A stretch of 64,000 nucleotides of DNA from Pseudomonas lopnurensis (GTDB lineage: Bacteria > Pseudomonadota > Gammaproteobacteria > Pseudomonadales > Pseudomonadaceae): assembly GCF_015070855.1 (NCBI RefSeq), contig NZ_JADDIX010000018.1, positions 37,993 through 101,992 on the forward strand. The letters are read 5' to 3'. Below the pieces are notes generated by a model. It was not told where the DNA came from and made no database searches. It worked only from the letters and a program-made list of their open reading frames with translations. Each line of letters opens with the position of its first letter. Positions within the stretch are counted from its first letter, which is position 1. This document shows, piece by piece, positions 48,691 through 64,000 of the stretch. The position numbers and the translations under genes were made by a program.

Positions 48691-48699
48691 TCGCTCGCC

Positions 48700-48750: not shown

Positions 48751-48819
48751 GTGCCGGGTTTGCCCCGACCCGCGCCCTTCCTCCTTTCTATCCCCGTCTC
48801 GAAAACCGTCGGCTGTCGG

Positions 48820-49293
48820 TCACGGTAGCGCCAGACGCAACGCGATCATCGGTGACTGGCCGAAGCCGTGGCGCGCATAGAAGCGTTGCGCCGCCCGGTT
48901 GTCCTGGTCGGTGAGCAGCGTGATGCGCCGGCAGTCCTGCTCGCGGGCGAAATCGATGGCGTGCCGCAGCAGTACGGAGCCGATACCGCTGCCGCGGTAC
49001 GCCGCGTCGACCACCATGTCCTCCAGCAGCGCGACCCTGGCCCCCAGCGCCGTGGAGACGCTGTAGAGCAGGCTGACCATGGCGACGATGCGTCCGCCCT
49101 GGCAGGCCACCAGGATCTGCCCTTTCTGCGCATCGCCGATGATCGCGCGCAGGCCGCGCTGTTGCGCGGCCGGGTCCGGGGTGAATTCGACTTCCTGCGC
49201 GAACAACTGGCCGAGCAGGCTGCAGAGCGCAGGGATGTCGTCTTCGCCCGCGCAGCGGATGATCAATGCGTCGGTTTTCGGATGATGCATCAT
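48820..49293 (-). CDS. GNAT-family N-acetyltransferase
   Basis: A 157-residue acetyltransferase with the GNAT fold; the acetyl-CoA loop appears as AAYRGSGIGSVLLRHA (about 98-113) and the later NRAAQRFYARHGF is the conserved C-terminal motif. It is the last gene of the purU-folD-sox-like run; its ATG overlaps the IclR stop (ATGA), so co-expression is likely. The substrate is unknown. A product of the pathway or an amine toxic to the cell could be acetylated, but nothing in the sequence shows this. Confidence 0.85.
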   Translation of the reverse strand: MMHHPKTDALIIRCAGEDDIPALCSLLGQLFAQEVEFTPDPAAQQRGLRAIIGDAQKGQILVACQGGRIVAMVSLLYSVSTALGARVALLEDMVVDAAYRGSGIGSVLLRHAIDFAREQDCRRITLLTDQDNRAAQRFYARHGFGQSPMIALRLALP

Positions 49294-50072
49294 GCTGCGC
49301 CCAACTCCCGGGAAATCGCCTGCGCGGTGTGCTGCAACTCGTGCAAAAAACGCTCCTGGGCCTGCGGGCTGTCCATGACCGCCTCGGGACCGGAGAGGTT
49401 GATGGCCGCGACGACGTCAGCGAGGTGGTTACGGATGCCACAGGCGATGGCAGTGGAATAGTCGGAGCGATGCAGCACCCAGCCTCGCCCGCGGTCTTCC
49501 TCGATGGTTTGCTGCAGCTCCGGCAGGGTCTTCGGGGCCGGCGGCGGGTAGTCGTCGAGGCGCACGTGCAGGTAGAGGCTGTCCAGCGCCATCGGCGACA
49601 GGCCGGTCAGCAGGATGCGCCCCATGGCGGTGCAGTGGCAGGGGATGCGCGTGCCGATGGGGATGTTCACCGACAGGCGCTGGGCGGCGAAGGCGCGGTA
49701 GATGTAGAGGCTGTCGGTCTGTTCGCGAATGCTCAGGTGGCAGGACAGCGAGGTGCGGTCGCGCAGCGCGTTGAGGTGGGGCTGGGCAATGTCCACCAGG
49801 TCGCGGCTGGCCAGGTAGGCGAAGCCGTCGGAGACCACCTGCGGCCCCAGCTCGTAGGTGTTCTTGGCGACTTTTCGCAGGTAACCCATCTCGTTCAGGG
49901 TGTACACGATGCGATAGATCGCCGACACGCTGACGCCGAGGCGCTCGGCGATCTCCTGGCTGCCGAGGGTGCGCTGGCGGGCGCCGAACATCTGCAGGAT
50001 GCTCAGGCCGCGCTGCAGGGCGGGGACCCGGTAGTCGGTGTCGCGCTCCGCGGTTTCGTCATGCTGGTTCAT
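49290..50072 (-). CDS. IclR-family transcriptional regulator
   Basis: A 260-residue regulator: winged helix-turn-helix at about 17-78 (ALQRGLSILQMF, SQEIAERLGVSVSAIYRIVYTL) and an IclR effector domain at about 90-255 with VNIPIGTRIPCHCTAMGRILL. ATG at 50,072 follows GGAG-like sequence. It lies 116 bases downstream of the gamma-subunit gene, in the same direction, with an 18-bp inverted repeat between them, and is a natural candidate regulator of the purU...soxG-like operon. IclR effectors are often the small carbon compounds the neighbouring pathway handles. Confidence 0.9.
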   Translation of the reverse strand: MNQHDETAERDTDYRVPALQRGLSILQMFGARQRTLGSQEIAERLGVSVSAIYRIVYTLNEMGYLRKVAKNTYELGPQVVSDGFAYLASRDLVDIAQPHLNALRDRTSLSCHLSIREQTDSLYIYRAFAAQRLSVNIPIGTRIPCHCTAMGRILLTGLSPMALDSLYLHVRLDDYPPPAPKTLPELQQTIEEDRGRGWVLHRSDYSTAIACGIRNHLADVVAAINLSGPEAVMDSPQAQERFLHELQHTAQAISRELGAA

Positions 50073-50091
50073 TGGCGCTCTCCGAGGAAAA

Positions 50092-50178
50092 GCAGCTTCA
50101 AGCTTCAAGCTGCAAGTTAGAGCAGCTATTGCGTGGTGCCTGCGCTCGTTGCTTTGAAGCTTGAAGCTTGAAGCTGGC
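50092..50178. repeat. Long inverted repeat, AGCTTCAA family
   Basis: AGCTTCAAGCTTCAAGCT at 50,094-50,111 is the exact reverse complement of 50,158-50,175, an 18-bp perfect stem with a 46-base loop. It lies between the gamma-subunit and iclR genes inside an apparent operon. Related elements lie at 61,776-61,875 and 28,739-28,967. Confidence 0.9.
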
Positions 50179-50188
50179 TTGTGGCCGC

Positions 50189-50875
50189 TCAGAGCAGGGC
50201 ATCGATACCCGCCGCTCGACCGTCGAACTCGGCCATGGCGTCGAGCAGCGCGTCCCAGAAATAGCTGGCCGACGCCCGGTCGCAGAGAATCTGCAGGCAC
50301 GGCAGCTCGCCCTGGGGCGCGTTGATGACGATCACGTTGATCCGCGCCGCCGAGGTCTGCGCCACCGAACCGGGCGGGAAGGCCTCGGCGCGCAGGTCGA
50401 CGCCGCAGAGCTTGGCCATCACCTCGCTGGCCTGTTCGCCGGTCAGCAGCAGCCAGGCGTGGCTGTCCTGGCGGGGCAGCAGGTAGTTGGCGCTGTCGCC
50501 GAGCTGCCACCCGGCCTCTTCCTGCTGGATGCGGCTGCCCGCGTCGCGCAGGCTGCCGAGCAGCAGGTATTCGCTCTGCGACAGGCGTGCGACCAGGCAG
50601 CCATCGTCCTGTGGTTGTGCCTGGTTGGGCCGTTCCGGCAGGCGGTAGCCCCTGGCACGCAGGTATTCGGCCGCGTCGCTGCCGCGAAAGCCGACTCGCG
50701 CCAGGTTGCTCTGATCGATCAGTGCGCAGCGTTGCAGTTGCGCGCTTTCGTCCTCGTCGCCATAGCCGGCGACCACCGCGGCATTGCCCAACTGGCCGAG
50801 CCGCGCGCCGACATGCCGGGGGTACAGCGGGCTGCGCTCGCTGAAGTCTTGTGCTTGCAAAATGGCCATGTTCAC
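50189..50875 (-). CDS. mgdD: Sarcosine oxidase-family gamma subunit; probable N-methylglutamate dehydrogenase subunit D
   Basis: A 228-residue protein of the SoxG family, which resembles the folate-binding GcvT fold and packs against the alpha subunit. Visible features include a start that reads through NMAILQAQDFSERSPLY and the middle WLLLTGEQASEVMAKLCGVDLR. GTG at 50,875 overlaps the alpha-subunit stop; ATG at 50,869 is an alternative. Last structural gene of the beta-delta-alpha-gamma block. In the methylamine pathway this is MgdD; in sarcosine catabolism, SoxG. The naming follows the neighbourhood, not this protein alone. Confidence 0.72.
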   Translation of the reverse strand: MNMAILQAQDFSERSPLYPRHVGARLGQLGNAAVVAGYGDEDESAQLQRCALIDQSNLARVGFRGSDAAEYLRARGYRLPERPNQAQPQDDGCLVARLSQSEYLLLGSLRDAGSRIQQEEAGWQLGDSANYLLPRQDSHAWLLLTGEQASEVMAKLCGVDLRAEAFPPGSVAQTSAARINVIVINAPQGELPCLQILCDRASASYFWDALLDAMAEFDGRAAGIDALL

Positions 50876-53775
50876 AGCTCCTGGCGTTGGTTGTGCGGGT
50901 CGAAGAAGGGCAGCTCGACGACCGTGGCCTGTACCACTTCGCCGCCCTCGACCCGGATCGGGATGTGGCTGCCCGGGGCACTCTGCCCGCTGCCCACGTA
51001 GGCCAGGCCGATGATCCGCTCGAGCGTGCGCGAGTATTCGCAGGAGGTGACGCTGCCGCTGATGGCGTCACCGTCGAGCACCAGGTGGCCTTCCAGCGGC
51101 TTGCTCGCACCCTTCGGCAGGCTGAAGCCGACCAGCTTGCGCGCGAGCGGCTGGGCTTCGAGGATCTGCACCGAGCGCTTGCCGACGAAGAACGGCTTGC
51201 TGCGGGCGATGGCCCAGCCCATGTCGATTTCGGCGGGATGGGTCATGCCGTCGGTGTCCTGGCCGATGATCACGTGGCCCTTTTCCAGGCGCAGCAGGCG
51301 CTGGCTCTCGACGCCGAAGGGGCGGATGTCGAACGCACGCCCGGCTGCCATCAGCGCATCCCACAGCGCCTCGCCGTAGCGCGCCGGGACATGGATCTCG
51401 TAGCCCAGTTCGCCGACGAAACCGACCCGCAACAGCCGCGCCGGGATGCCGACCACCGTGCCCTGGCGCACGCCGAGATAGGGGAAGGCCTCGGCCGACA
51501 GGTCGAGGTCGTTGCACAGCGTCTGCAGCACCTTGCGTGAATCCGGCCCGGCCAGGTTGACCGCGGCCAGGGCGGCGGTGACGTTGGTGACGTCGACGTC
51601 CAGGCGCCACTGTGCGTTCCACTTGAGCATTTGCTGGTAGAGGCGATCGACCCCGCTGGTGGTGGCGGTGACGTAGAAGTGGTTCGGCGCGAAGCGTGCG
51701 CAGACGCCGTCGTCGATCACCACGCCGTGCTCGTTGGTCATCAGCGCGTAGCGCGAGCGGCCCACCGGCTGCTTGGCGAAGGCGAAGGTGTAGAGGCGCT
51801 CGAGCAGCTCGGCGGCGTCCGGGCCGCGTACGTCGAGGCCGCCGAGGGTGGAGACGTCGATCAGGCCGACCTTTTGCCGCACGTGCAACGCTTCTTCCTG
51901 CATGCAGCGTTCGCGCTCCTCGGCCTTGCCGTAGTAGGCCGGGCGCTGCCAGACGCCGGCGGGCATCATCTTCGCGCCGGCTTCCAGGTGCCGCTGGTGC
52001 ATGGGCGTCTGCCGGTAGGGATCGAAGCCGCGCCCGGCGACATGGGCGAGTTTTTCCGCGACGAACGGCGGCCGTGCGGTGGTCACCCCGGTTTCGCTGA
52101 CGCTGCGGCCGGTGGCCCTGGCCACCAGGCGCGCGGTGGGCAGCGCCGAATGGCGGCCCTGGGACGGGCCCATGCCGACGGTGGAGAAGCGCTTGACCAG
52201 TTGTACGTCGCGATAGCCGTGGCGGGTGGCGTTGACGATGTCGCGTACCTGCAGGTCCTCGTCGAAATCGACGAAGTCCTTGCCGTCCGGATGGGGGAAG
52301 ATCGGCCAGTCGAAATTGACCCTCGGCTCGGCGGCGAAGATCGCCTCCGCGCTGCCGCCCAGGCCCAGACGTCCGGTGGCGCCGCCAGCGGCCCGGGCGC
52401 CATCGAGCAGCACGTTGTCCAGTGCGTACCGGCCGTTCACCGAGCCGGCGACGTCCAACCGCCGGGGCAGGCCGCTGAGGCTGAAGGCGGCCTGGTCGTC
52501 ATCGTAGGCCAGCTTGCCGCCGGCCTGGCACAGCAACTGATAGACCGGCATGTAGCCGGCGGACATGCACAGCAGGTCGCAGTCGATGCGCTGGGCGTCA
52601 CTGGCGACCTGGCCTTCGCCGACGATGCGGCGCACGTCGACGCCGCTGACGTGGCGCATGCCCTTGGCGTGCAGCGCCTCGTAGACGGTATGCCCCGGCA
52701 GGTGCGGAATGCCGCGGGTCTGCAGGGCGGTGACCAGCAGGCCGTCAGCGGGTGCGTCGCGCAGGTCGATGACCGCGGCGACGGCCACCCCGGCCTCGTG
52801 CAGGTCGAGCGCGGCGAGGTAGCCGTCGTCGTTGCCGGTCAGCACCACCGCGCGGTTGCCCGGTTTCACCGCGTAGAGCTTCATCAGCCGCTGGGCGGCG
52901 CTGGTGAGCATGATGCCGGGCAGGTCGTTGTTGCGGAACACCACCGGCTGGTCGAAGGCGCCGGTGGCCACGATGCACTCCCTGGCGCGCACCTTGTACA
53001 GCCGCGTGCCCTGGATCACCGGCAGGAAGTTGTCGACGAACCAGGCGTTGCAGGTGGCTTCCTTGAGGATGCGGATGTTCGGGTGTTGTTCCACGGCCTC
53101 CACCAGCCGCTCGCGCAGCGCCCCGGCGCGTACGCCTTCGAGGTCGAAGCGCGCCCAGGCCAGGGCGCCGCCGAGGTAGGGCTGCTGCTCGACGAGCAGC
53201 ACCTTGGCACCGGTGTTGGCGGCATGCAGCGCGGCGCTGAGCCCGGCCGGCCCGGCGCCGACCACCGCGACGTCGACGAAGAGAAAGGCCTTGTCGTGGT
53301 ACTCCGGCTGGAATTTCAGGTTCAGCACGCCGAGGCCGGCCTTCTTGCGGATGATCGGTTCCCAGACCTTCCAGATGCCTTGGGGCTTGTAGAAGGAACG
53401 GTAATAGAAGCCGACCGGCATGAAGCGCGAGAAATGCCCGAGCAGGGCATCGCGGTCGCTGTCCAGGGAGCCGGCGAAGTTCTGCCCGCCGACCTCGAGC
53501 CCTTCGGCGAGCGCCTGCATGTCGGCCAGCGCGTTGGGCTCATCGGGCAACTGCACCAGGGTGTTGGCGTCCTGCCCGGCGAGGCTGAGCGGGCCGCGCG
53601 GACGGTGGTACTTGAACGAGCGCGACATCAGCCAGCGGCCGTTGGCGAGCAGCGCGCTGGCGATGCTGTCGCCCTGCAGGCCCTGGTAGGCCTTGCCGTC
53701 GAAGCTGAAGGCGAGCGGTCGATCGCGGTCGATCAGCAGGCCCATGGGCGCGGGCAGGCGGTTGAAGGCCGTCAT
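50872..53775 (-). CDS. mgdC: Sarcosine oxidase-family alpha subunit; probable N-methylglutamate dehydrogenase subunit C
   Basis: A 967-residue protein. Domain order: N-terminal ferredoxin-fold-like segment (about 15-90, with YQGLQGDSIASALLANG), NAD-binding Rossmann domain (VVGAGPAGLSAALHAANTGA, GxGxxG at 173-178), then a C-terminal GcvT/aminomethyltransferase-like domain (about 580-960) that in the family binds tetrahydrofolate and turns the released formaldehyde into 5,10-methylene-THF. The start overlaps the delta-subunit stop (ATGA). Family length is 950-1010. Sarcosine oxidase alpha and N-methylglutamate dehydrogenase MgdC are homologous; the nearby gmaS/mgs-like genes and absence of glyA or betaine genes favour the latter. 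Confidence 0.75.
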   Translation of the reverse strand: MTAFNRLPAPMGLLIDRDRPLAFSFDGKAYQGLQGDSIASALLANGRWLMSRSFKYHRPRGPLSLAGQDANTLVQLPDEPNALADMQALAEGLEVGGQNFAGSLDSDRDALLGHFSRFMPVGFYYRSFYKPQGIWKVWEPIIRKKAGLGVLNLKFQPEYHDKAFLFVDVAVVGAGPAGLSAALHAANTGAKVLLVEQQPYLGGALAWARFDLEGVRAGALRERLVEAVEQHPNIRILKEATCNAWFVDNFLPVIQGTRLYKVRARECIVATGAFDQPVVFRNNDLPGIMLTSAAQRLMKLYAVKPGNRAVVLTGNDDGYLAALDLHEAGVAVAAVIDLRDAPADGLLVTALQTRGIPHLPGHTVYEALHAKGMRHVSGVDVRRIVGEGQVASDAQRIDCDLLCMSAGYMPVYQLLCQAGGKLAYDDDQAAFSLSGLPRRLDVAGSVNGRYALDNVLLDGARAAGGATGRLGLGGSAEAIFAAEPRVNFDWPIFPHPDGKDFVDFDEDLQVRDIVNATRHGYRDVQLVKRFSTVGMGPSQGRHSALPTARLVARATGRSVSETGVTTARPPFVAEKLAHVAGRGFDPYRQTPMHQRHLEAGAKMMPAGVWQRPAYYGKAEERERCMQEEALHVRQKVGLIDVSTLGGLDVRGPDAAELLERLYTFAFAKQPVGRSRYALMTNEHGVVIDDGVCARFAPNHFYVTATTSGVDRLYQQMLKWNAQWRLDVDVTNVTAALAAVNLAGPDSRKVLQTLCNDLDLSAEAFPYLGVRQGTVVGIPARLLRVGFVGELGYEIHVPARYGEALWDALMAAGRAFDIRPFGVESQRLLRLEKGHVIIGQDTDGMTHPAEIDMGWAIARSKPFFVGKRSVQILEAQPLARKLVGFSLPKGASKPLEGHLVLDGDAISGSVTSCEYSRTLERIIGLAYVGSGQSAPGSHIPIRVEGGEVVQATVVELPFFDPHNQRQEL

Positions 53776-54080
53776 GCGACCACCTCCTGGCGTGCCGCTG
53801 GCTGGGCGAAGTCGACGCGACGGTCGAAGAGCTCCTTCGGGTCGAAGGTGCGGATGATCTCGTCGCTGACGGTATGGCGCTCGGCGAGGAACCAGTAGCT
53901 GGAGGCGTTGTGCAGCCACCATTCGGTGACTACGCCGGCGTGGTTGTCGCAATTGAAGACGTAATCGGCCCACTCGTCATCGCTGCAGGCCTGCGGGTCG
54001 GGCATCTGCTTGAGCTCGCCGCCGTAGGTGAATTCGCTGATGTTGCGCGGGCCGTTCAGGGGGCAGGGCATGATCTTCAT
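53772..54080 (-). CDS. mgdB: Sarcosine oxidase-family delta subunit lacking most zinc ligands; probable MgdB
   Basis: A 102-residue subunit. In heterotetrameric sarcosine oxidase the delta subunit binds zinc through CxxC near the N-terminus, a His and a later Cys. Here the start reads MKIMPCPLNGPRN, with only one Cys of the pair, and the later region reads WLHNASSYWFLAERH with no Cys. The rest (EFTYGGE, DEWADYVF, AERHTVSDEI) aligns well. Loss of the zinc site fits an N-methylglutamate-dehydrogenase-type subunit. ATG at 54,080 has GGAG 9 bases upstream. Confidence 0.78.
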   Translation of the reverse strand: MKIMPCPLNGPRNISEFTYGGELKQMPDPQACSDDEWADYVFNCDNHAGVVTEWWLHNASSYWFLAERHTVSDEIIRTFDPKELFDRRVDFAQPAARQEVVA

Positions 54081-54110
54081 GGTTGACTCCTTGGCAAGCA
54101 AGGCTGGGGG

Positions 54111-54150
54111 TCGTTCGCGTCGGCGCGATCGCCAGCAAGCTGGCTCCTAC
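54111..54150. repeat. REP half-palindrome between beta and delta subunit genes
   Basis: CGCGATCGCCAGCAAGCTGGCTCCTAC has the CTCCTAC terminus of Pseudomonas REPs and an internal CCAGCAAGCTGG dyad. It interrupts an otherwise overlapping gene run. Confidence 0.65.
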
Positions 54151-54170
54151 TTGAAAATTGCGATTGGTTG

Positions 54171-55412
54171 TCAGTGGCTTGCCGCCGTGGCGCCCATTTC
54201 GTTGACCTGCCGGAAGCGCGAGAAGCGTTCCAGGGCGAAGGGACGGATGAGTTCCGGGACCTTGCCGCCGCTGGCGACCAGTTCGGCCATGGTCTTGCCG
54301 CAGATCGGCGTGGCCTTGAAGCCCCAGGTGCCCCAGCCGGCGTCCAGGTAGTAGTTCTCCAGCGGCGACAGGCCCATGATCGGGCTGTAGTCGGGCGTCA
54401 TGTCGGTGATGCCGGCCCACTGGCGCATCAATTTGGCGTTGGCCAGGAACGGGAACATCTCGATGGCATGGGCCAGCAGGCCCTCCTTGAGCTCCAGGGT
54501 CGAGCGCGTGTTGTACAGCGGGTAAGGGTCCGAGCCACCGCCGATCACTACCTCGCCACGGCCGGTCTGCTGCACGTAGCAATGCAGCGCCGAGGAGCTC
54601 ACCAGCGGATCGAGGAAGGGCTTGAACGGTTGGGTCACCATGGCCTGCAGCGGATAGCTGTGGATCGGTGCGCGGATGCCCAGCTTGTTCATCAGCAGCG
54701 AGCTGTACCCGGCGATGGCCTGCACCGCGCAGCCGCACTTCACGGTGCCGCGGTTGGTCTTCACCGCCGTGACCCTGCCGTGCTCTACCACGAAGTCCTG
54801 CACCTCGGTCAGCTGGTGGATTTCCACCCCGCGCTTGGCCGCCTGCTTGGCATAGCCCCAGGCCACGGCATCGTGGCGCGCAGTGGCGCCGTCGATGTGC
54901 CAGAGCCCGGCGAGCACCGGCAGGTGGCCGGGGTCGAGGTTGAGCGTCGGCACCAGTTCGCGGATCTGCTGGCGGTCGATCATCTCGGTGCGGCCACCGA
55001 AGTGCTTGTTCACCTCGGCGCGCTGGCGGAAGGCGCGCACCGTCGCGTCGGTGTGCGCCAGGGTCAGCTGGCCGCGCTCGGAATACATGATGTTGAAGTC
55101 GAACTCGTTGGAGAGCGCCTTGAACAGTTTCACCGACTCGGTATAGAAGCGCACACCTTCGCTGGTGAGGTAGTTCGAGCGGATCACCGCGGTGTTGCGG
55201 GCGGTGTTGCCGCCACCGAGATACGCCTTCTCCAGCACCGCGACGTTGGTCACGCCGTGGTACTTGGCCAGATAGTAGGCGGTGGCCAGGCCGTGGCCGC
55301 CACCGCCGATGATCACCACGTCGTAGCTGTCCTTGAGTTCCTTCGGCGCCGGCAGGTCGACTTCGGCCGGGTACTCCGAGGACAGGCCGTACTTCAGCAG
55401 GCTGAACGGCAT
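54171..55412 (-). CDS. mgdA: Sarcosine oxidase-family beta subunit; probable N-methylglutamate dehydrogenase subunit A
   Basis: A 413-residue FAD enzyme of the DAO superfamily. FAD motif [20 protein letters not shown] (about 31-50), [18 protein letters not shown], and [11 protein letters not shown], whose His180 matches the histidine that carries covalent FMN in sarcosine oxidase beta. C-terminal [19 protein letters not shown] closes the FAD site. Family members oxidise an N-methyl group to an imine. ATG at 55,412 overlaps the folD end by 19 bases. Whether the substrate is sarcosine or N-methylglutamate rests on context. Confidence 0.78.
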
Positions 55413-56317
55413 GCTGCCTCCTCCGCGGCCGTGACGGCCGACGCGTGCGATCGTTGCTGGCGGGCAGCGGTCAGGGTGTTCTGCATCAGCATGGCGATGG
55501 TCATCGGACCCACGCCGCCCGGCACCGGGGTGATTGCCGAGGCCACGGGCAGGGCGCTGGCGTAGTCGACGTCGCCGACCAGCCGGGTGCGGCCATCCTC
55601 CTCGATGCGGTTGATACCGACGTCGATCACCACCGCGCCGGGCTTCAGCCAGCTGGCGTCGATCATGCGGGGCCGACCGACCGCGGCGACGACGATGTCG
55701 GCCTGGCGGCACAGGCTCTGCGGATCGCGGCTGCGCGAATGCAGCACGGTCACCGTGCAGTCCGCCTGCAGCAGCAGCGCCGCCATCGGCTTGCCGACGA
55801 TGTTCGAGCGGCCGATCACCACCGCGTGCTTGCCGCGCAGGTCGCCGAGGGTGTCGCGCAGCAGGCGCATGCAGCCGGCCGGGGTGCACGGGGTGAGCAC
55901 TGGGCGGCCCTGGCTGAGGCCGCCGACGTTCTCGCTGTGGAAACCGTCGACGTCCTTGGCCGGGTCGATGGCCTGCAAGACGCGGGTTTCGTCGATGTGC
56001 GCCGGCAGTGGCAATTGCACGAGGATGCCATGCAGCGCCGGGTCGGCGTTCAGTTCGGCGATCAGCGCCAGCACCTGTTCGGCACTGGCGTCGGCCGGCA
56101 GCCGGTGTTCCAGCGAGCGGATGCCCACTTCCCCGGCGCGCAGTACCTTGTTGCGCACGTAGACGTGGCTGGCCGGGTCGTCGCCGACCAGCACAACCGC
56201 GAGCGCCGGCAGGGTGCCCTCGGCGGCGAGCAGGGCGACGTCGGCCGCCACTTCGGCGAGGACCTTCGCCGAGACGGCCTTGCCGTCGATGACTTTTTCG
56301 CAGGTCGGGCTGTTCAC
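55394..56317 (-). CDS. folD: Bifunctional methylene-THF dehydrogenase/methenyl-THF cyclohydrolase
   Basis: A 307-residue enzyme that oxidises 5,10-methylene-THF to 10-formyl-THF with NADP+. Signatures: [17 protein letters not shown] (catalytic Lys of YxxxK), [11 protein letters not shown], and the cofactor region [20 protein letters not shown] at 56,317 overlaps the purU stop (GTGA). It probably processes the methylene-THF made by the neighbouring oxidase; an additional housekeeping folD elsewhere in the genome is expected. About 20 residues longer at the C-terminus than typical FolD. Confidence 0.93.
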
Positions 56318-57180
56318 CGGAAGATCACCGTCTTGTCGTGGTTGAGGAAGACGCGGTGCTGCAGGTGGTACTTGACCGCCTTGGAGAGCGCCACGGTTTC
56401 GGTGTCGCGGCCGATGTTCACCAGGTCGTCGGGCTTGTAGGCATGGTCGACGCGCTGCACCTCCTGCTCGATGATCGGGCCTTCGTCGAGGTCGGAAGTG
56501 ACGTAGTGGGCGGTGGCGCCGATCAGCTTGACGCCGCGGTCGAAGGCCTGGTGGTATGGCTTGGCGCCCTTGAAACCGGGCAGGAACGAGTGGTGGATGT
56601 TGATCGCGCGGCCCGACAGTTGCTTGCACAGGTCGTCGGAGAGGATTTGCATGTAGCGCGCCAGAACCACCAGTTCGGTCTCGGTCTCGTCGATGACCTT
56701 CATCAGCTCGGCTTCCTGGCGGGCCTTGGTTTCCTTGGTCACCGGCAGGTAGATGAAGCGGATGCCTTCACGCTCGGCCATCGGCCGCAGGTCCAGGTGG
56801 TTGGAGACGATGGCGGTGATCTGCATGTCCATCTCGCCCTTGTGGTAGCGATACAGCAGGTCGTTCAGGCAATGGTCGAACTTGCTCACCATCAGCAGCA
56901 CTCGCATGGGGCGGGCCGTGCTGTGCAGCTCCCAGGTCATGTCGAAGTCATTGGCGACGGCGACGAAACCCTGCTCGAGGGTGGTGATGTCGCCTTCCAG
57001 GCCGGCATTGAAGCGAAACACCGCGCGCATGAAGAACCGACCGCTGAATTCATCGTCGAATTGCGCCATTTCACTGATGTAGCAACCGTTCGCGGAGAGG
57101 AAGGAAGTCACCGCGGCGACGATGCCCGAAGTGGCCGGGCAGCTGATCTTGATGATGAAGTGGTCCTGTGCGTGTTGCAT
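56314..57180 (-). CDS. purU: Formyltetrahydrofolate deformylase
   Basis: A 288-residue enzyme hydrolysing 10-formyl-THF to formate and THF. N-terminal ACT domain (about 5-90), then a formyltransferase-like catalytic domain with [23 protein letters not shown] and [19 protein letters not shown] (catalytic Asn-His-Asp). First gene of the run; GAGGA lies 6 bases before the ATG. It frees THF for the oxidase and lets C1 units leave as formate. Confidence 0.95.
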
Positions 57181-57360
57181 GTCTAGTCCTCAAGGGGGTG
57201 GAGGCAGAAGGCGCAAATGCAAATTTGATAAGTGAATGCTTTGTTTGTATGCGAATATTTTTAACTGCCAAGAATATATTATTCGCTTGGGTGTTTTTAT
57301 AAGCGAACGGAACGCATCGGTCCATAGGTTTGTGAAAAAAAATATCCCTGCAGGAAACTC
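57181..57360 (-). promoter_or_regulatory. AT-rich promoter region of the purU-folD-mgd-like operon
   Basis: 180 bases much richer in A+T than the neighbours. GCGAATA (57,251-57,257) and TATTCGC (57,280-57,286) form an inverted repeat with 22-base spacing; another GCGAA occurs near 57,303. TGCAAATTTG at 57,218-57,227 contains the perfect palindrome CAAATTTG and resembles TGCAATTTGCA in the divergent region at 58,722. These are candidate operators for IclR or XRE regulators. Confidence 0.55.
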
Positions 57361-58668
57361 TTACCGGGCACGCGAAAAACGCTCGAAGCGAAAGGGGTAC
57401 GGGCTGACCACCGGGACCTGGCCGCTGATCAGATCGGCCATCAGGGCGCCGGCACCCGGTGCGATGCCGAAGCCGTGCCCCGAATAGCCGGTGGACAGGA
57501 ACAGACCCGGCAGTTCGGCCACCGGGCCGATCACCGGCAGAGCGTCGGGCGTGGCATCCATGGCACCCGCCCAGGTCTGGCTGACCTGCAGCCCCTCGAA
57601 GAACGGAAAGTGCCGGCACAGCGCCCGGCGCGCCTCGGCGAGGATCGCGCGGTCGGGTTGCGGATCGAGCACCCGCAGCGCTTCGAACGGGCCGGGCCGG
57701 TCCGGCGACCAGTGCGTCGGCAGGCGCCACTCGTCGATGAACTGCCGGCCCAGGCGCACCCGCAGCTCCCGGTACTGCCTGGCGAGGGCCGGCAGGAAAT
57801 CCGCCAGATAGCGGAAGCTGTCCGGAGTGATCGGAGCGATGTTGGCGCTGCGCTGGGCGATGGTGTAGCCACCGTCGCGACGTTTGCGGAAGGCGAAGTC
57901 ATGGGCCCCTACGGCCAGTTCCGGCCCGCCCGGCATCGGCGCGGTGCGCAGCACGGAGGCGATCACCTTGAGCTGCGGCAGGCGGATGCCGAGGGGGCGA
58001 CAGAACAGCGACGACCAAGCGCCGCCGGCGAGCACCACGCTGGCGCAGCGCAGTTCGCCGTGTTCGGTCACCACGCCGCTTACGCGGCCCGCTTCGCGGA
58101 TCAGCCCGCGTACCGCGCATTGCTCGTGGAAGCGCGCGCCCAGGCGCTGCGCGGCACGGGCGATCGCCGCTGTGGCCATATGCGGTTCGGCCCGGCCATC
58201 CTCGGGGGCGTGCAGCGCGCCGAGCCAGTGGTGGCGGGCCGCCTGCGGCAGCAGCTGGCGCAACTGGACCGGATCGAGCTCACGGGCCACAACCCCCTGC
58301 GCGCTGGCCGCGCGCAGCCAGTGCGCCTGTTCCGCCTGCTGCCGGGCGCTTTCGCAGACATAGAGAATGCCGCTGCGCTGAAAGCCGGTGTCCTCGCCCA
58401 GCGTCGTTTGCCAGTCATCCCAGATCTTCAGGCTGGCCATGGCCAGCGGGATTTCCGCCAGGTCGCGGCCCAGGGTGCGGCACCAGCCCCAGTTGCGCGA
58501 GGACTGTTCCGCTGCGAGCCGGCCCTTTTCCAGCACCACTGCGGAAACCCCGCGGGCGGCCAGGAAATAGGCGGTGCAGACGCCGATGATGCCGCCGCCG
58601 ATGATGGCGACGTCGACATGAGTGGGAAGGTGTGTGTCGCTGTTGATCATCTGGATGTGCGGGTACAT
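57361..58668 (-). CDS. DAO-family FAD-dependent oxidoreductase
   Basis: A 435-residue FAD protein. GGGIIG at 24-29 starts the dinucleotide fold, LEKGRLAAEQSSRNWGWCR follows, and the C-terminal STGYSGHGFGIAPGAGALMADL closes the FAD site, as in glycine oxidases, D-amino acid dehydrogenases (DadA) and related enzymes. The SSRNWGWCR motif is common in oxidases acting on N-alkyl amino acids and related amines. The start at 58,668 has a GAGG about 12 bases upstream; ATG 58,650 is possible. Divergent from an IclR gene. Its substrate is unknown, though an N-methyl or secondary amine would fit the place. Confidence 0.83.
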   Translation of the reverse strand: MYPHIQMINSDTHLPTHVDVAIIGGGIIGVCTAYFLAARGVSAVVLEKGRLAAEQSSRNWGWCRTLGRDLAEIPLAMASLKIWDDWQTTLGEDTGFQRSGILYVCESARQQAEQAHWLRAASAQGVVARELDPVQLRQLLPQAARHHWLGALHAPEDGRAEPHMATAAIARAAQRLGARFHEQCAVRGLIREAGRVSGVVTEHGELRCASVVLAGGAWSSLFCRPLGIRLPQLKVIASVLRTAPMPGGPELAVGAHDFAFRKRRDGGYTIAQRSANIAPITPDSFRYLADFLPALARQYRELRVRLGRQFIDEWRLPTHWSPDRPGPFEALRVLDPQPDRAILAEARRALCRHFPFFEGLQVSQTWAGAMDATPDALPVIGPVAELPGLFLSTGYSGHGFGIAPGAGALMADLISGQVPVVSPYPFRFERFSRAR

Positions 58669-58774
58669 GAAGAGCGCCTCGGTTCGGGAGATGGCGCGAG
58701 ATTGTCGTGTCCGGCGCGGTGTGCAATTTGCATCGCCTTTCGCATCGGCGTTTTTATCAACATGTGAGAAAGCG
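58669..58774. promoter_or_regulatory. Divergent promoter, FAD oxidoreductase / IclR
   Basis: 106 bases containing the palindrome TGCAA-T-TTGCA (58,722-58,732), similar to the element upstream of purU. Centred between the two starts, it is a likely operator for the IclR protein encoded at 58,775. Confidence 0.55.
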
Positions 58775-59584
58775 ATGGGGGAATCGAGGCGGCATGGCGA
58801 GGTGACCGGCAGCCAGACGCTGGAGCGCGGCCTGGGGTTGTTGCGCGAGATCGCCGCGGCGGGCGAAGCCGGTGCCGATCTGCAGCGGCTGTGCGCCAGC
58901 AGCGGCTGTTCGAAGGCGACGACCTACCGTCTGTTGCAGGCGCTGCGCCGGCAGGGGTTCGTTGGCAACGGCAGGCAGCGTGGCCGCTTCGTGCTGGGCT
59001 ACGGCCTGTTCGCGCTCGCTGCGCAGGCGGGCAATGCCCATGGCCTGCGGGATCTGGCCAGGCCTGCGCTGTGGCGATTGGCCAGGCGCTTCGGCGACAG
59101 CTTCTTCCTGCTGGTGCCGGACGGTCATCATGTCCTGTGCCTGGAGATGCAGGATGGCGAGCAGCCCGTGCGCTGCTACAGCCACGCCGTGGGCGGGCGC
59201 ATCCCCATGGGGGTGGGGCAGGGCTCGCAGGTGCTGTTGGCCCAGCTGGGCCGGGCCGAGCGTAGCGCCATTCTCGAGCACAACGCGGCGGTGCTGCGTG
59301 TCGATTACGGGCTGGACGCGCAGGTCATAGCCGGCACGCTGGACAGCGTGCGGCGCCTGGGTTTCGCCTGTGGCGTGCCGGATCGTCGTCTGCCGGGCTA
59401 TACCGGCCTCGCAGTGCCCATCGTCGATGTCGGCGGGCAGGTGCTCGGCGCCCTCAGTTGCGCGCTGTCGCGGCCGCGAATGACCCAGCAAAGGCGCCTG
59501 GCGCTGGCCGCTGCGATGGCCGAAGAGGTCCGCCGGATGCTGGAAAAGGCCCAGGGTCTGTTGCGTCTGGAAGCCTTGCCGTGA
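58775..59584 (+). CDS. IclR-family transcriptional regulator
   Basis: A 269-residue regulator with N-terminal winged helix (SQTLERGLGLLREIA; SKATTYRLLQALRRQGF, about 10-75) and an IclR effector domain (about 85-260; GGRIPMGVGQGSQVLLAQLG, YTGLAVPIVDVGGQVLGALS). ATG at 58,775 is preceded by GAGAAAG. Second IclR gene of the block and not a close copy of the first. Probably governs the divergent FAD oxidoreductase. Confidence 0.88.
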   Translation: MGESRRHGEVTGSQTLERGLGLLREIAAAGEAGADLQRLCASSGCSKATTYRLLQALRRQGFVGNGRQRGRFVLGYGLFALAAQAGNAHGLRDLARPALWRLARRFGDSFFLLVPDGHHVLCLEMQDGEQPVRCYSHAVGGRIPMGVGQGSQVLLAQLGRAERSAILEHNAAVLRVDYGLDAQVIAGTLDSVRRLGFACGVPDRRLPGYTGLAVPIVDVGGQVLGALSCALSRPRMTQQRRLALAAAMAEEVRRMLEKAQGLLRLEALP

Positions 59585-59590
59585 GCGTGC

Positions 59591-60190
59591 TCAGTCCTTG
59601 TCGTAGTTCATGATCGAGAGCAGGCGGATCGGTACTTCGACCAGCTTCTCCGGGCCATGCGGGACTTCACCGTCGAAGGTCAGGCTGTCGCCGGCGTGCA
59701 TCGGGTAGAGCAGGTTGCCGTGGCGATAGATCAGTTCGCCTTCGAGCAGGTGAATGAACTCGGTGCCCGGATGGGAGAAGGTGGGGAACTCCTCGCTGGC
59801 ATCGTCCATGGTGATCATGTAGGCCTCGAAGCTTTTCTTCGGCCCGCGGGTATGGTTCAGCAGATGGTAGGTATGGCCTTTTTCCGTCCCGCGGCGCACC
59901 ACTTCCATGCCTTCGCCCTGCTTGACCAGCAGGGCGCCGCTGCCTTGCTGGTCGTACTGGCTGAACAGCTTGGACATCGGCATGCCGAGCACGTCGCACA
60001 AGCGGCTGAGGGAATCCAGGCTGGTGGACACCTGGGCATTCTCGATCTTGCTCAGCATGCCCTGGCTGATGCCGGCGATGCGGGCCACGTCGGCGATCTT
60101 CAGGCCCTGGGCCTGGCGCTGGCGCTTGAGTTGGATACCGAGGTACTGCTCGAGTTTGAGGCGGGGCGGCGTATCGGTCGATTTGGTCAT
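59591..60190 (-). CDS. XRE-family regulator with C-terminal cupin domain
   Basis: A 199-residue protein: helix-turn-helix (about 14-72; GIQLKRQRQAQGLKIADVARIAGISQGMLSKIENAQ) and cupin (about 120-195; FSHPGTEFIHLLEGELIYRHGN, LTFDGEVPHGPE). Related XRE-cupin regulators sense amino acids or amines and control nearby catabolic genes. Divergent from the gmaS-like gene with 252 bases between. Start at ATG 60,190. Confidence 0.9.
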   Translation of the reverse strand: MTKSTDTPPRLKLEQYLGIQLKRQRQAQGLKIADVARIAGISQGMLSKIENAQVSTSLDSLSRLCDVLGMPMSKLFSQYDQQGSGALLVKQGEGMEVVRRGTEKGHTYHLLNHTRGPKKSFEAYMITMDDASEEFPTFSHPGTEFIHLLEGELIYRHGNLLYPMHAGDSLTFDGEVPHGPEKLVEVPIRLLSIMNYDKD

Positions 60191-60442
60191 TGGTCTGCGC
60201 GATTTTAGTTCCTGGAATATATATTTCGCACCAAGAATGAACAGGCTCCTGTGCCGCGACGAGGTTCCAGACGGTGCGAATTTTCGTCCTATGAAAACAT
60301 CTTTCCTCCTTATATAGAAGAAACGGGGTTTCACGGCGTGTTTCCGTTCCCTTGGGGCAGGTTGGCAAGCGCTTTGCATTTCCTAATGTGAAAATTAATT
60401 TCCCTTGCGGAATATGTGCGGCCTACCAAGGAGCGAATCACG
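60191..60442. promoter_or_regulatory. Intergenic control region, XRE-cupin / gmaS-like gene
   Basis: ATTTCGCACC (60,223-60,232) and GGTGCGAATT (60,273-60,282) are inverted near-copies 50 bases apart, about 160 and 110 bases upstream of the start site predicted from the sigma-54 element. They are candidate binding sites for the XRE-cupin protein or an enhancer-binding activator. Confidence 0.55.
60363..60378 (+). promoter_or_regulatory. Sigma-54 (RpoN) -24/-12 promoter
   Basis: TGGCAAG-CGCT-TTGCA matches the sigma-54 consensus TGGCAcG-N4-TTGCA at every conserved position but one, with GG (60,364) and GC (60,376) exactly 12 apart. It lies 65 bases before the gmaS-like ATG, so transcription should begin near 60,389. 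Sigma-54 promoters need an activator such as NtrC, consistent with nitrogen-limitation control. Confidence 0.85.
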
Positions 60443-61777
60443 ATGTTGCCCAGCGAAACACAGCGAATCATCGACCAGCACGGCATCAAGTACGTCCTGG
60501 CACAGTTTGTCGATATCCATGGCTCGGCCAAGACCAAATCGGTACCGGTGTGCGGCCTGGAGTCCGTCGCGGAAGTGGGCGCCGGGTTTGCCGGTTTCGC
60601 CATCTGCGGCATGGGCATGGAACCCCATGGGCCGGATTTCATGGCGCGTGGCGATCTTTCCACCCTGACGCCGGTGCCCTGGCAGCCGGGCTATGGCCGC
60701 GTGTTGTGCATCGGCCACGTCGACGGTAAACCCTGGCCCTACGACAGCCGCTACGTACTGCAGCAGCAGGTGCGGCGCCTGAGCGAACGGGGCTGGACCC
60801 TGAACACCGGCCTGGAGCCGGAGTTCAGCCTGTTCCGTCGCGACGGCGAAGGCCGCCTGCAACTGGTCGATGCCAGCGACAACCTGGACAAGCCCTGCTA
60901 CGACTACAAGGGCCTGTCGCGTTCGCGGGAATTCCTCGAGCGCCTGACCGAAGCCCTGCAGAAGGTCGACTTCGAGATCTACCAGATCGACCACGAGGAT
61001 GCCAACGGCCAGTTCGAGATCAACTACACCTACAGCGACGCCATGACCTCGGCGGATCGCTTCACCTTCTTCCGCATGGCCGCCGGCGAAATCGCCAACG
61101 AGCTGGGCATGATCTGCTCGTTCATGCCCAAGCCGGATCCGAAGCGCGCCGGCAATGGCATGCACTTCCACCTGTCGATCGGCAACGCGGAGAGCGGCAA
61201 TCTGTTCCACGATGCCAGCGATCCCAGTGGCATGGGCCTGTCGAAGATGGCCTATCACTTCGCCGCCGGCTTGCTGGCCCATGCCCCGGCGCTGTGCGCC
61301 TTCGCCGCGCCGACGGTCAATTCCTACAAGCGGCTGGTGGTGGGGCGCTCGCTGTCCGGCGCGACCTGGGCGCCGGCCTTCGTCGCCTACGGTTCCAACA
61401 ACCGCTCGGCGATGGTGCGCATTCCCTATGGGCGCATCGAGTTCCGCCTGCCGGATGCCGGCTGCAATCCCTACCTGGTCACCGCCGCGGTCATCGCCGC
61501 CGGGCTCGATGGCATCGACCGCCAGCTCGAGGCCGGGGCGCCGTGCAACGAGAACCTCTACGACCTGGGCCTGGAAAAGATCGCCGCACGCGGCATCCAG
61601 ACCCTGCCGCAATCGCTCAAGGAAGCCTGCGATGCGCTGGAGGCCGACCCGCTGTTCCGCGAGACGCTCGGCGCCGAGATCGTCGACGAGTTCCTCAAGC
61701 TCAAGCGCATGGAATGGGTGGAATACAGCCGTCACGTCTCCGATTGGGAAATCCAGCGGTATACCGAGTTTTTCTAG
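60443..61777 (+). CDS. gmaS: Type III glutamine synthetase-like (GlnT); probable gamma-glutamylmethylamide synthetase
   Basis: A 444-residue glutamine-synthetase-fold ATP-dependent ligase. Metal/ATP motifs: [21 protein letters not shown], and the C-terminal [15 protein letters not shown] then [13 protein letters not shown]. Length and sequence are those of the GlnT/GlnA-III group, to which gamma-glutamylmethylamide synthetase belongs: glutamate + methylamine + ATP. AAGGAG precedes ATG 60,443. The three next genes encode the GOGAT-like N-methylglutamate synthase, which supports gmaS rather than an ordinary glutamine synthetase. Strict discrimination by sequence alone is not possible. Confidence 0.8.
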
Positions 61778-61875
61778 CGGCAAGCCGCAAGCTTCAAGCT
61801 GCAAGAAAGAGCGGTTCGAAGCGTTGCACAACATCCGTATCAACTCGGTCAGCTTGCAGCTTGAGGCTTGCCGCT
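61776..61875. repeat. Long inverted repeat, AGCTTCAA family
   Basis: Left arm 61,776-61,801 and right arm 61,850-61,875 pair at 24 of 26 positions, with a 48-base loop. The left arm starts inside the last codons/stop of the gmaS-like gene and the right arm ends 25 bases before the next ATG. Same family as 50,092-50,178. Confidence 0.88.
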
Positions 61876-61900
61876 ACCGAACGAAGTGAGGACTGCTTTT

Positions 61901-62806
61901 ATGTGTGGAATCGTAGGGCTTTATCTGAAGAACCCCGCGCTGGAGTCCCGGCTCGGCGAGTTGTTCGAGCCGATGCTGCTGGCCATGACCGGGCGCGGGC
62001 CGGACAGTGCCGGTTTCGCCATCTATGGCGACGAGGTCAATGAGGGCTGGGTCAAGTTGACCCTGCAGAGCGGCGAAGTCGAATACGACTGGAAGACCCT
62101 GATGGGCGAACTGGAAGGCTGCCTCGGCTGCTCCCTGGACTGGTTCAGGAACGCCAGCGCCGCCGTGCTGAAAGTCAATGCCGATGAGGCCATGGTGCGT
62201 GCCGCGCTGAAGACGCTGGCGCCGGACGTGCGCGTGATGAGTGCGGGCCGGAGCATCGAGATTCTCAAGGGCATGGGGCTGCCGGCGGAGATCGCCGAGC
62301 GCTTCTCGCTGGCCGGCATGAAAGGCAGCCACATCATCGGCCACACCCGCATGGCGACCGAAAGCGCGGTCACCATGGAGGGCAGCCACCCGTTCTCCAC
62401 CGGTGACGATCTCTGTCTGGTGCACAACGGCTCGCTGTCCAACCATTTCCGCCTGCGCCAGGAACTCGAGCGCCACGGCATCGGCTTCGAAACCGAGAAC
62501 GACACCGAGGTTGCCGCCGGCTACCTGACCTGGCGCCTGCAGCAGGGCGACAGCCTGCAGCAGGCGCTGGATCACGCCCTGGAAGACCTCGACGGCTTCT
62601 TCACCTTCGCCATCGGCACCCGCGACGGCTTCGCCGTGATCCGCGACCCGATCGCCTGCAAGCCGGCGATCCTCGCCGAGACCGACGACTACGTGGCCAT
62701 GGCCTCGGAGTACCAGGCGCTGGCCAGCCTGCCGGGAATCGACAAGGCCAAGGTCTGGGAGCCGGAACCGGCCACCCTGTATGTCTGGGAAAAGAAGGCT
62801 GTTTGA
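61901..62806 (+). CDS. mgsA: Class II glutamine amidotransferase (GlxB); probable N-methylglutamate synthase subunit A
   Basis: A 301-residue Ntn hydrolase. Cys2 after the initiator Met (MCGIVGLY) is the nucleophile; GHTRMATESAV and VHNGSLSNHFRLR and the late ENDTEVAAGYLTWRL are class II amidotransferase signatures. In the pathway it would release methylamine from gamma-glutamylmethylamide and pass it to the synthase. It follows the gmaS-like gene across a 123-base gap filled by an inverted repeat. Confidence 0.85.
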   Translation: MCGIVGLYLKNPALESRLGELFEPMLLAMTGRGPDSAGFAIYGDEVNEGWVKLTLQSGEVEYDWKTLMGELEGCLGCSLDWFRNASAAVLKVNADEAMVRAALKTLAPDVRVMSAGRSIEILKGMGLPAEIAERFSLAGMKGSHIIGHTRMATESAVTMEGSHPFSTGDDLCLVHNGSLSNHFRLRQELERHGIGFETENDTEVAAGYLTWRLQQGDSLQQALDHALEDLDGFFTFAIGTRDGFAVIRDPIACKPAILAETDDYVAMASEYQALASLPGIDKAKVWEPEPATLYVWEKKAV

Positions 62807-62818
62807 GGAGCGCACCGA

Positions 62819-63502
62819 ATGAAAACCATCAATCTCACCGAATCCACCGTGCGTGATCTCAACCAGGCGCTGCATGACCAGGCCAGGGACCTGCGCGAGC
62901 GCGAGTGGCTGGTGACCCATCCGGACGGCAAGCACAACCTGGCCGTCGGCATCAACGAGGCGCTGTCCATCGATATCCAGGGGCATGCGGGCTACTACTG
63001 CGCGGGCATGAACCAGAAGGCCAGCGTCACCGTGCATGGCAATGTCGGCGTCGGCGTGGCCGAGAACATGATGAGCGGCATGGTGCGGGTCAAGGGCAGC
63101 GCCTCGCAGTCGGCGGGCGCCACTGCCCATGGCGGCCTGCTGGTGATCGAGGGCGACGCCGGCGCGCGCTGCGGCATCTCGATGAAGGGTGTCGACATCG
63201 TGGTCGGCGGCAGCATCGGCCACATGAGCTGCTTCATGGCCCAGGCCGGCCGCCTGGTGGTCTGCGGCGACGCCGGCGATGCCCTGGGCGATTCGCTCTA
63301 CGAGACGCGCATCTACGTGAAGGGTAGCGTCAAGTCGCTGGGTTCGGACTGCATCGAGAAGGAAATGCGCGCCGAGCACCTCGAGGAGCTGGCCGAACTG
63401 CTGAACCGCGCCGGCTTCGACGAGGACCCGGCCAGCTTCAAGCGCTACGGCTCGGCCCGCCAGCTCTACAACTTCAAGGTCGACAACGCCTCGGCGTACT
63501 GA
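62819..63502 (+). CDS. mgsB: GltB C-terminal-like protein (GlxC); probable N-methylglutamate synthase subunit B
   Basis: A 227-residue protein homologous to the GXGXG beta-helix domain of glutamate synthase. Repeats with G-x-x-G pattern run through VTVHGNVGVGVAENMMSG, VRVKGSASQSAGATAHGG, LVIEGDAGARCGISMKG and IVVGGSIGHMSCFMAQAG. Starts 12 bases after mgsA with GAGGAG upstream. Structural role in the three-subunit synthase. Confidence 0.85.
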   Translation: MKTINLTESTVRDLNQALHDQARDLREREWLVTHPDGKHNLAVGINEALSIDIQGHAGYYCAGMNQKASVTVHGNVGVGVAENMMSGMVRVKGSASQSAGATAHGGLLVIEGDAGARCGISMKGVDIVVGGSIGHMSCFMAQAGRLVVCGDAGDALGDSLYETRIYVKGSVKSLGSDCIEKEMRAEHLEELAELLNRAGFDEDPASFKRYGSARQLYNFKVDNASAY

Positions 63503-63521
63503 CTGAACCGATACCTGCCGC

Positions 63522-63591
63522 TGTAGGAGCGGGCCATGCCCGCGAAAAAGCATTCGCGGGCGTGGACTCGGCGTCCCCGCCCGCTCCTACC
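63522..63591. repeat. REP palindrome between mgsB- and mgsC-like genes
   Basis: GTAGGAGCGGGCCATGCCCGCGA at the left and GCGGGCGTGGACTCGGCGTCCCCGCCCGCTCCTAC at the right pair as a REP doublet ending in CTCCTAC. It sits between two genes expected to be co-transcribed. Confidence 0.85.
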
Positions 63592-63617
63592 GGATCATCC
63601 ATTTCGAGGAGCTCCCC

Positions 63618-64000
63618 ATGAGCAACGAATATTCACCGGTACTGCGCGAGTCCGCCACCTTCGACCGCCTGACCATCCAGGAAATCCAGCGCGCCGCCGA
63701 AACCGGCATCTACGACATTCGCGGTGGCGGCACCAAGCGCAAGGTGCCGCACTTCGACGACCTGCTGCTGCTCGGTGCCAGCATGTCGCGCTACCCGCTG
63801 GAGGGCTACCGCGAGAAGTGCGGCACCGACGTGGTGCTCGGCACCCGCTTCGCCAAGAAGCCGATCCACCTGAAGATCCCGGTGACCATCGCCGGCATGA
63901 GCTTCGGCGCGCTGTCCGCCCAGGCCAAGGAAGCCCTCGGCCGTGGCGCGAGCATCGCCGGTACCAGCACCACCACCGGCGACGGCGGTATGACCCCGGA
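63618..64000 (+). CDS. mgsC: FMN-binding glutamate synthase-family protein (GlxD), cut by window end; probable N-methylglutamate synthase subunit C
   Basis: The first 127 residues of a glutamate-synthase-like protein: MSNEYSPVLRESATFDRLTI at the start, a DIRGGGTKRKVPHFDDLL segment, and the start of the FMN barrel with KIPVTIAGMSFGALSAQAKEALGRGA. No stop is reached before 64,000; members are about 440 residues. GAGGAG precedes ATG 63,618. Expected to hold FMN and a 3Fe-4S cluster in the missing part and to reductively transfer methylamine to 2-oxoglutarate. Confidence 0.85.
   Translation, partial: MSNEYSPVLRESATFDRLTIQEIQRAAETGIYDIRGGGTKRKVPHFDDLLLLGASMSRYPLEGYREKCGTDVVLGTRFAKKPIHLKIPVTIAGMSFGALSAQAKEALGRGASIAGTSTTTGDGGMTP

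Follow-up and report, generated by a model that had tools for sequence, protein, structure and literature searches.

A very probable complete N-methylglutamate methylamine pathway at one end of a methylated-amine gene island in Pseudomonas lopnurensis

The N-methylglutamate (NMG) pathway of methylamine use is itself not new and is already known in Pseudomonas. According to passages of PMC8292978, citing Kamini et al. 2018, Pseudomonas sp. C5pp has one operon gmas-mgsABC-amt and a second, purU-folD-mgdABCD; enzyme activities, quantitative PCR (qPCR) and the use of methylamine as nitrogen source are reported for it. Mutants have been reported in Methyloversatilis (in part of PMC5023235), and sections of PMC13390433 describe complete trimethylamine pathways in several Gammaproteobacteria, a Pseudomonas strain among them. 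Here we analyse a 64,000-nucleotide stretch of the Pseudomonas lopnurensis genome (GCF_015070855.1; the whole stretch is hereafter called the window), in which a block of genes at positions 48820 to 64000 very probably encodes a complete NMG pathway. The original prediction, made from the sequence alone, had proposed such a pathway; that part stands, but its framing was too narrow, since the block forms the end part of a larger island for methylated amines, and Pseudomonas sp. C5pp had earlier been described with this layout.

The window lies on contig C11 (positions 37993-101992) of a 4.9-Mb draft genome, and "extended position" denotes window numbering carried past 64000 into the same contig. 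By its GmaS protein, the nearest named relative is Stutzerimonas kunmingensis (96%), followed by other Pseudomonadaceae, in keeping with the organism having been called Pseudomonas-like. Gene calls combine NCBIfam and Pfam profile scores, read against curated cut-offs, with the open frames of window and contig. The pathway genes are:

60443..61777, + strand: gmaS/glnT, predicted gamma-glutamylmethylamide synthetase of 444 amino acids (TIGR03105, 670 bits against a cut-off of 469.6; scanned from 60416)
61901..62806, + strand: mgsA/glxB, class II glutamine-amidotransferase subunit with N-terminal Met-Cys (GATase-type NCBIfam matches, none over cut-off)
62819..63502, + strand: mgsB/glxC, GXGXG subunit (FwdC-like matches below cut-off)
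63618..64940 (the window ends at 64000), + strand: mgsC/glxD, subunit with a flavin mononucleotide (FMN) glutamate-synthase domain (PF01645, 308 bits; complete at L012:2611-3933)
56314..57180, - strand: purU, formyltetrahydrofolate deformylase (TIGR00655, 335 bits, over cut-off)
55394..56317, - strand: folD, methylene-tetrahydrofolate dehydrogenase/cyclohydrolase (NF010790, 547 bits, over cut-off)
54171..55412, - strand: mgdA, beta-type subunit (soxB family, 458 bits, below the curated cut-off of 529)
53772..54080, - strand: mgdB, delta-type subunit (PF04267; the Cys-Cys-His-Cys set of sarcosine oxidase is not kept)
50872..53775, - strand: mgdC, alpha-type subunit with a GcvT-like folate domain (soxA family, 898 bits, below the curated cut-off of 1164)
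50189..50869, - strand: mgdD, gamma-type subunit (GCV_T, 44 bits; assigned by position and synteny)

This analysis established which genes are present, in what order, and to which families and clades they belong; every named pathway gene is an intact open frame (mgsC being read in the contig). The plus-strand group gmaS-mgsABC and the minus-strand group purU-folD-mgdABCD are divergent and about 3.3 kb apart. Because three of the five junctions in the latter overlap (purU/folD, folD/beta and delta/alpha), while alpha and gamma nearly abut and beta and delta are separated by a 90-bp gap, it looks like one operon. Next to gmaS lies the three-gene set of GATase, GXGXG and FMN glutamate-synthase domains, and all three mgs genes accompany gmaS in 78 of 80 named loci. 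The gene inventory originally predicted is thus recovered: a GlnT-like ligase, three GlxBCD-like genes (the last crossing the window edge), four intact minus-strand oxidase frames in the order beta-delta-alpha-gamma, and folD and purU on the same strand upstream of beta. The noted lack of glyA and betaine genes, which classical sarcosine catabolism would lead one to expect, also holds among the annotated frames of the block; a glyA tblastn search, which covered the fetched loci, gave matches confined to sox loci.

The catalytic steps and their direction, like the regulation discussed below, are proposed by analogy with named homologues. GmaS would join methylamine to glutamate at the expense of ATP, giving gamma-glutamylmethylamide, and MgsABC, which together equal the domains of the glutamate-synthase large subunit, would transfer the methylamino group to 2-oxoglutarate and yield N-methylglutamate. 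MgdABCD, a heterotetrameric relative of sarcosine oxidase, would then convert N-methylglutamate to glutamate and pass the methyl carbon to tetrahydrofolate as methylene-tetrahydrofolate, from which FolD and PurU could release the one-carbon unit as formate and free tetrahydrofolate. The methylamine nitrogen would thereby become cell nitrogen. For the fate of formate, a search for formate dehydrogenase gave a best match of 550 bits, under the cut-off of 666. Methylamine dehydrogenase (PF02975) had no match in the genome, a result that is uninformative since the control likewise matched none of 14 genomes.

The top solved relative of the window's GmaS is PDB 9qur, deposited as "Glutamate--methylamine ligase" (669 bits), and the second is RhGmaS, 7cql (324 bits); identities in the alignment are 64.5% to 9qur, 41.6% to 7cql and 35.5% to the glutamine synthetase (GS) 8s59. 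We checked residues taken from passages of the RhGmaS structure paper (PMC7948447), leaving out the own-genome rows L001, L002 and L005, which are wrong-frame open frames. The window enzyme keeps 10 of 10 (Lys30, Ala48, Tyr147, Gln175, Asp177, Glu179, Glu186, Asn188, Trp300 and Arg312), including the catalytic Asp177, Glu186 and Arg312 and the methylamine-pocket residues checked, whereas the GS control 8s59 keeps 3 of 10. It carries Ala for GS Asp50' and Trp for GS Glu304, like 9qur and 7cql, where 8s59 has Asp and Glu; the ammonia-handling residues of GS (Asp50' and the Glu-flap Glu) are absent. In a tree of 25 ligases, which has two very long branches, the window's sequence groups not with true glutamine synthetases but with 9qur and 14 others, at a support of 91 (against a mark of 95). 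Two further groups, placed in no resolved order, are the RhGmaS type, which takes in four alphaproteobacterial rows, and a paralogue type found on contig C59 of the same genome. The C59 paralogue is 44.8% identical to the window's GmaS and deviates at 3 of the 10 checked sites, and genes scoring like it are common in the genus; we regard it as lying outside this system. Judged by its residues, GlnT of the window is very probably a GmaS-type ligase, with a predicted preference for methylamine over ammonia.

For the oxidase, alpha and beta trees were built from 54 hand-picked loci, the alpha tree without L047, L060, L092 and L117 (no row at 80% coverage) and the beta tree without L047, L060 and L067; a row is called gmaS-linked when gmaS lies in the same locus, contig or plasmid. 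In the alpha tree (52 rows) the window's subunit clusters with 38 gmaS-linked rows, Methylophaga aminisulfidivorans among them, and with one Agrobacterium vitis row, at an SH-aLRT (approximate likelihood-ratio test) support of 100. The opposite side holds PDB 2gag, all eight glyA-linked SoxA rows, L067, L205 and the gmaS-linked Rhodobacteraceae row L071. The beta tree (53 rows) gives the same split, also at support 100, with 42 rows on the window side, so that neither subunit falls inside the proven sarcosine oxidases. The original prediction had named two outcomes that would refute it, oxidase subunits clustering there and GlnT clustering with true glutamine synthetases, and neither came about. 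At eight positions of beta, 41 Mgd rows can be told from 9 Sox rows; seven of these positions show no exception and the eighth holds in 40 of 41 Mgd rows (a count that left out L071, L066 and L205). Among the eight is position 356 of 2gag, Gly in Sox and Trp in Mgd, two residues before a conserved Lys. Every beta row keeps His173, which we take to be the site of flavin attachment. The delta Cys-Cys-His-Cys set, presumably zinc ligands, is present in 8 of 8 glyA-linked loci and both PDB chains, whereas none of the 54 loci whose GmaS reaches 60% identity has it (some genomes counted twice); the window's delta subunit reads C-N-H-gap at these sites. On this comparison mgdABCD is of an N-methylglutamate dehydrogenase type apart from sarcosine oxidase, with alpha and beta assigned by tree, delta by motif and gamma by position and synteny.

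The two halves of the predicted pathway also occur together. Among 56 genus genomes, the gmaS gene scoring about 670 bits and a full-length MgdC (74-100% identity) are found in the same eight, and SoxA-type genes of 36-41% identity in 14 (counted from the listing), with both kinds in two; the window's own genome has a single full-length soxA-like gene. The family sample of 148 genomes has 86 with any match and 33 with MgdC, 24 of these 33 also having SoxA (counted from the listing). At most 15 candidates were scored per genome in the genus and at most 5 in the family sample. Across the 80 named gmaS loci, mgdC lies within the examined flank in 47.

Several observations weigh against the NMG reading. 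The other 33 of the 80 named gmaS loci lack mgdC in the examined flank, and a ninth genus genome, G022, holds an MgdC fragment without the gmaS of about 670 bits. The ligase tree does not separate GmaS in its entirety from the C59-type paralogue and recovers just the group of the window and 9qur (support 91), and the oxidase trees were built without the studied Mgd of Methyloversatilis (the one with mutant evidence), Methylocella and Ruegeria. In an extended alpha tree, with three alphaproteobacterial rows added and L205 and L140 (long branches) and L053, L057 and L100 (near copies) dropped, four rhizobial or Rhodobacteraceae gmaS-linked oxidases form one clade on the Sox side (support 100), so gmaS linkage alone does not define the window's oxidase clade. 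Finally, the Agrobacterium vitis relative of the oxidase has no gmaS beside it, which makes a wider substrate range possible.

The four Sox-side loci (L071, L219, L220 and L222) are on alphaproteobacterial plasmids, where an oxidase annotated as sarcosine oxidase lies beside glnT/glxBCD. They keep the Sox-like Gly at beta position 356, and the two rhizobial ones also keep the delta CCHC set. Their GmaS ligases group together with RhGmaS, and oxidase and GmaS of the Pseudomonas type and of the rhizobial/Rhodobacteraceae type fall into the same two groups. It is conceivable, if doubtful, that N-methylglutamate dehydrogenase arose at least twice from sarcosine-oxidase-like enzymes, once for each type; one origin is equally open, because the tree is unrooted with three clades. 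The A. vitis locus (L066, plasmid of strain CG957) has an mgd-like oxidase with folD and purU beside RidA and aminotransferase genes, and no gmaS or mgs within about 10 kb.

We weighed three other readings of these genes. It is very improbable that the four oxidase genes encode a classical sarcosine oxidase (SoxBDAG) placed by chance beside a GlnT/Glx cluster. Subunit order and family are the same, the flavin-attachment His173 is conserved and the nearest solved relatives are sarcosine oxidases, but alpha and beta score under the curated soxA and soxB cut-offs, both stand in a separate clade (support 100), the delta CCHC set is lost and no glyA is annotated in the block. Moreover, a separate SoxA of about 40% identity occurs beside MgdC in 2 of 8 genus and 24 of 33 family genomes, indicating that the two are not substitutes. 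We rejected a classical sarcosine oxidase on the alpha and beta trees and the delta motif. Even less credible, to the point of being nearly negligible, is that GlnT is a type III glutamine synthetase acting on ammonia, with GlxBCD serving ammonia assimilation as a split glutamate synthase. The GS fold of the ligase and the NCBIfam name of TIGR03105, "type III glutamate--ammonia ligase", would fit it; the GmaS residues at 10 of 10 sites against 3 of 10 in 8s59, the grouping with 9qur (support 91) and the co-occurrence of gmaS with MgdC in the genus speak against it. Residues and ligase grouping led us to reject an ammonia-type GlnT.

A slim chance, somewhat larger than for either of these, attaches to a module that serves another N-methylated amino acid or amine, with methylamine as a side substrate. 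Pointing there are the DAO flavoprotein gene, conserved with an IclR regulator beside purU-folD-mgd in RW109 (a Pseudomonas aeruginosa strain compared below) and some relatives, and the mgd-like genes of A. vitis without gmaS; however, the DAO gene is in the examined flank of just 1 of 47 named gmaS loci with mgdC, and the GmaS residues fit methylamine. We retain the NMG methylamine pathway as the preferred reading.

Five further genes of the block, absent from the original prediction, lie between the two groups (XRE/cupin regulator, IclR regulator and DAO-family flavoprotein) or after gamma (second IclR and GNAT gene); they are listed here with a sigma-54-type element upstream of gmaS:

48820..49293, - strand: GNAT acetyltransferase (PF00583)
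49290..50072, - strand: IclR-type regulator, downstream of mgdD (PF01614, 117 bits)
57361..58668, - strand: DAO-family flavin adenine dinucleotide (FAD) oxidoreductase (PF01266, 256 bits)
58775..59584, + strand: IclR-type regulator adjoining the DAO gene (PF01614, PF09339)
59591..60190, - strand: XRE/cupin (PuuR-like) regulator, divergent from gmaS (HTH_3 and Cupin_2)
60363..60377, + strand: sigma-54-type -24/-12 element TGGCAAGCGCTTTGC (TGGCAAG-N4-TTGC), starting 80 nt upstream of gmaS

An xre homologue is present in 72 of the 80 named gmaS loci. Elsewhere in the window, at 29010-29096(+), there is an Rfam t44 RNA match of 74 bits (cut-off 44).

The putative promoter element recurs upstream of gmaS in relatives. 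All 37 distinct upstream regions whose GmaS is at least 83% identical contain TGGCAAGNNNNTTGC, at a distance of 77 to 179 nt from the start; these regions come from Pseudomonas, Stutzerimonas or genus-level records and one record labelled Pantoea, and related rows among them are not independent. The element stays while its four spacer bases vary. With at most one mismatch to the sigma-54 consensus, matches are present in 55 of 87 distinct upstream regions, patchily outside close relatives, and 0.6% of mononucleotide shuffles reach this level. Across the whole window, a scan allowing two mismatches gave 83 sites against 86 expected; because the motif is no more frequent than chance, the gmaS site is credible only by its position and conservation. 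The contig yielded no gene with an AraC-type helix-turn-helix (HTH) and the island no sigma-54 activator gene, so that NtrC or another general activator would be the simplest candidate for what acts at the predicted gmaS promoter. The conserved putative sigma-54-type promoter suggests that methylamine is used mainly for nitrogen.

The block belongs to a chromosomal island between accA and tilS, delimited by comparison with six genomes in which the site is empty. Their match to the window stops at 48690-48693 and resumes at extended positions 85940-85956, with about 120-140 bp between; 37.3 kb therefore lie between accA and tilS in the window genome. Comparison of stretches at both ends of the island revealed no flanking direct repeats of at least 11 bp. 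The extended stretch to the right of the window (65161-83183; L012, L013) holds genes for Tmm, Tdm, dimethylamine monooxygenase, a GcvT-like protein, SugE, a class I amidotransferase and chemoreceptor-like proteins. The island and its genes beyond the window are:

48694..64000, no strand: window part of the 37.3-kb island, whose far end is near extended position 85950, immediately ahead of tilS (empty-site comparison, six genomes)
beyond the window: Tmm (NF058570, equivalog, 834 bits against a cut-off of 675)
beyond the window: Tdm (NF053776, equivalog, 1180 bits against a cut-off of 1100)
beyond the window: DmmA-family protein (104 bits against a cut-off of 60)
beyond the window: heme-dependent oxidative N-demethylase-like protein (match to solved 5lte, 657 bits)
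beyond the window: reductase and GcvT-like protein (from the gene content of the island)

The pathway block would be the last stage of this island, into which trimethylamine, its N-oxide and dimethylamine could feed via Tmm, Tdm and dimethylamine monooxygenase. A Tmm of at least 89% identity occurs in seven of the eight gmaS/MgdC genomes (not in G028), and the other 48 genus genomes have one relative at 66%. From its gene content, the island seems able to supply a gene set leading from trimethylamine to formate and ammonium.

Among relatives, the cluster is at the accA-tilS site in G034 (both sides seen) and in G039 and G026 (one side seen); it lies elsewhere on the contig of accA in G047 and G028, and in G009 on a different contig, where accA was not seen next to it. 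A decayed remnant in G022 (L208, G022:C1:1413000-1430000) occupies the accA-tilS site and retains IclR, mgdD and sugE together with rearranged pieces of mgdC and the GcvT-like gene. Literature searches covering open-licence papers returned no description of an accA-tilS island in Stutzerimonas. The slot after mgsC is variable: a Na+/H+ antiporter gene fills it in the window genome, and the ammonium transporter found there in G034 is 100% identical to that of the P. aeruginosa RW109 plasmid (L056:2488-3813, L014:24508-25833). Despite the identical transporter, likeness to the window's GmaS is 98% for G034 and 88% for RW109.

Related modules also occur on plasmids. Acinetobacter loci L015 (Acinetobacter seifertii plasmid) and L100 (contig) carry gmaS-mgs and mgd modules, with purU-folD seen in L015, and the ligase is on about 20 Acinetobacter plasmids among the matches listed; because these plasmids carry ligase and modules, the NMG pathway is mobile. 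On Aquabacterium and Cupriavidus plasmids (L016, L070), gmaS-mgsABC stands with an FAD oxidoreductase, HutD and the N-formylglutamate deformylase HutG, without mgdABCD nearby; L070 additionally has electron-transfer flavoprotein (ETF) genes. These gene sets could be another way of oxidising N-methylglutamate.

A predicted gene set from trimethylamine to formate and ammonium thus sits on one chromosomal Stutzerimonas island. Since relatives offer clean empty sites and a decayed remnant, this single locus lends itself to studying how methylated-amine use is gained and lost. The beta and delta residue differences provide a sequence rule for separating this predicted N-methylglutamate dehydrogenase from sarcosine oxidase, two enzymes confused in the record annotations examined.

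Among described systems, Pseudomonas sp. C5pp has the same genes in the same two operons, with purU-folD ahead of mgdABCD. Going by passages of PMC8292978, its operons are 37.7 kb apart, whereas those of the window are divergent at about 3.3 kb with DAO, IclR and XRE genes between, and amt follows mgsC where the window genome has the Na+/H+ antiporter. P. aeruginosa RW109 plasmid 1 (LT969519) shares the arrangements iclR-DAO-purU-folD-mgdABCD-iclR and XRE-gmaS-mgsABC, and has ammonium transporter and dimethylamine monooxygenase genes after mgsABC. It differs in being a megaplasmid, in the distance of about 21 kb between mgsC and mgdD, and in that the features annotated in the two stretches examined include neither tmm nor tdm. 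The trimethylamine pathway of Ruegeria pomeroyi DSS-3 resembles the island in its full route by tmm, tdm, dmm, gmaS-mgs and mgd; there, according to sections of PMC13390433, the AraC regulator TmaR controls the genes, in contrast to the window contig with no AraC-type HTH gene found. Sarcosine oxidase (PDB 2gag, 1vrq) shares with MgdABCD the four-subunit architecture, the flavin His and the folate domain, but MgdABCD forms a separate clade, with a delta subunit lacking CCHC in the window and eight separating positions in beta.

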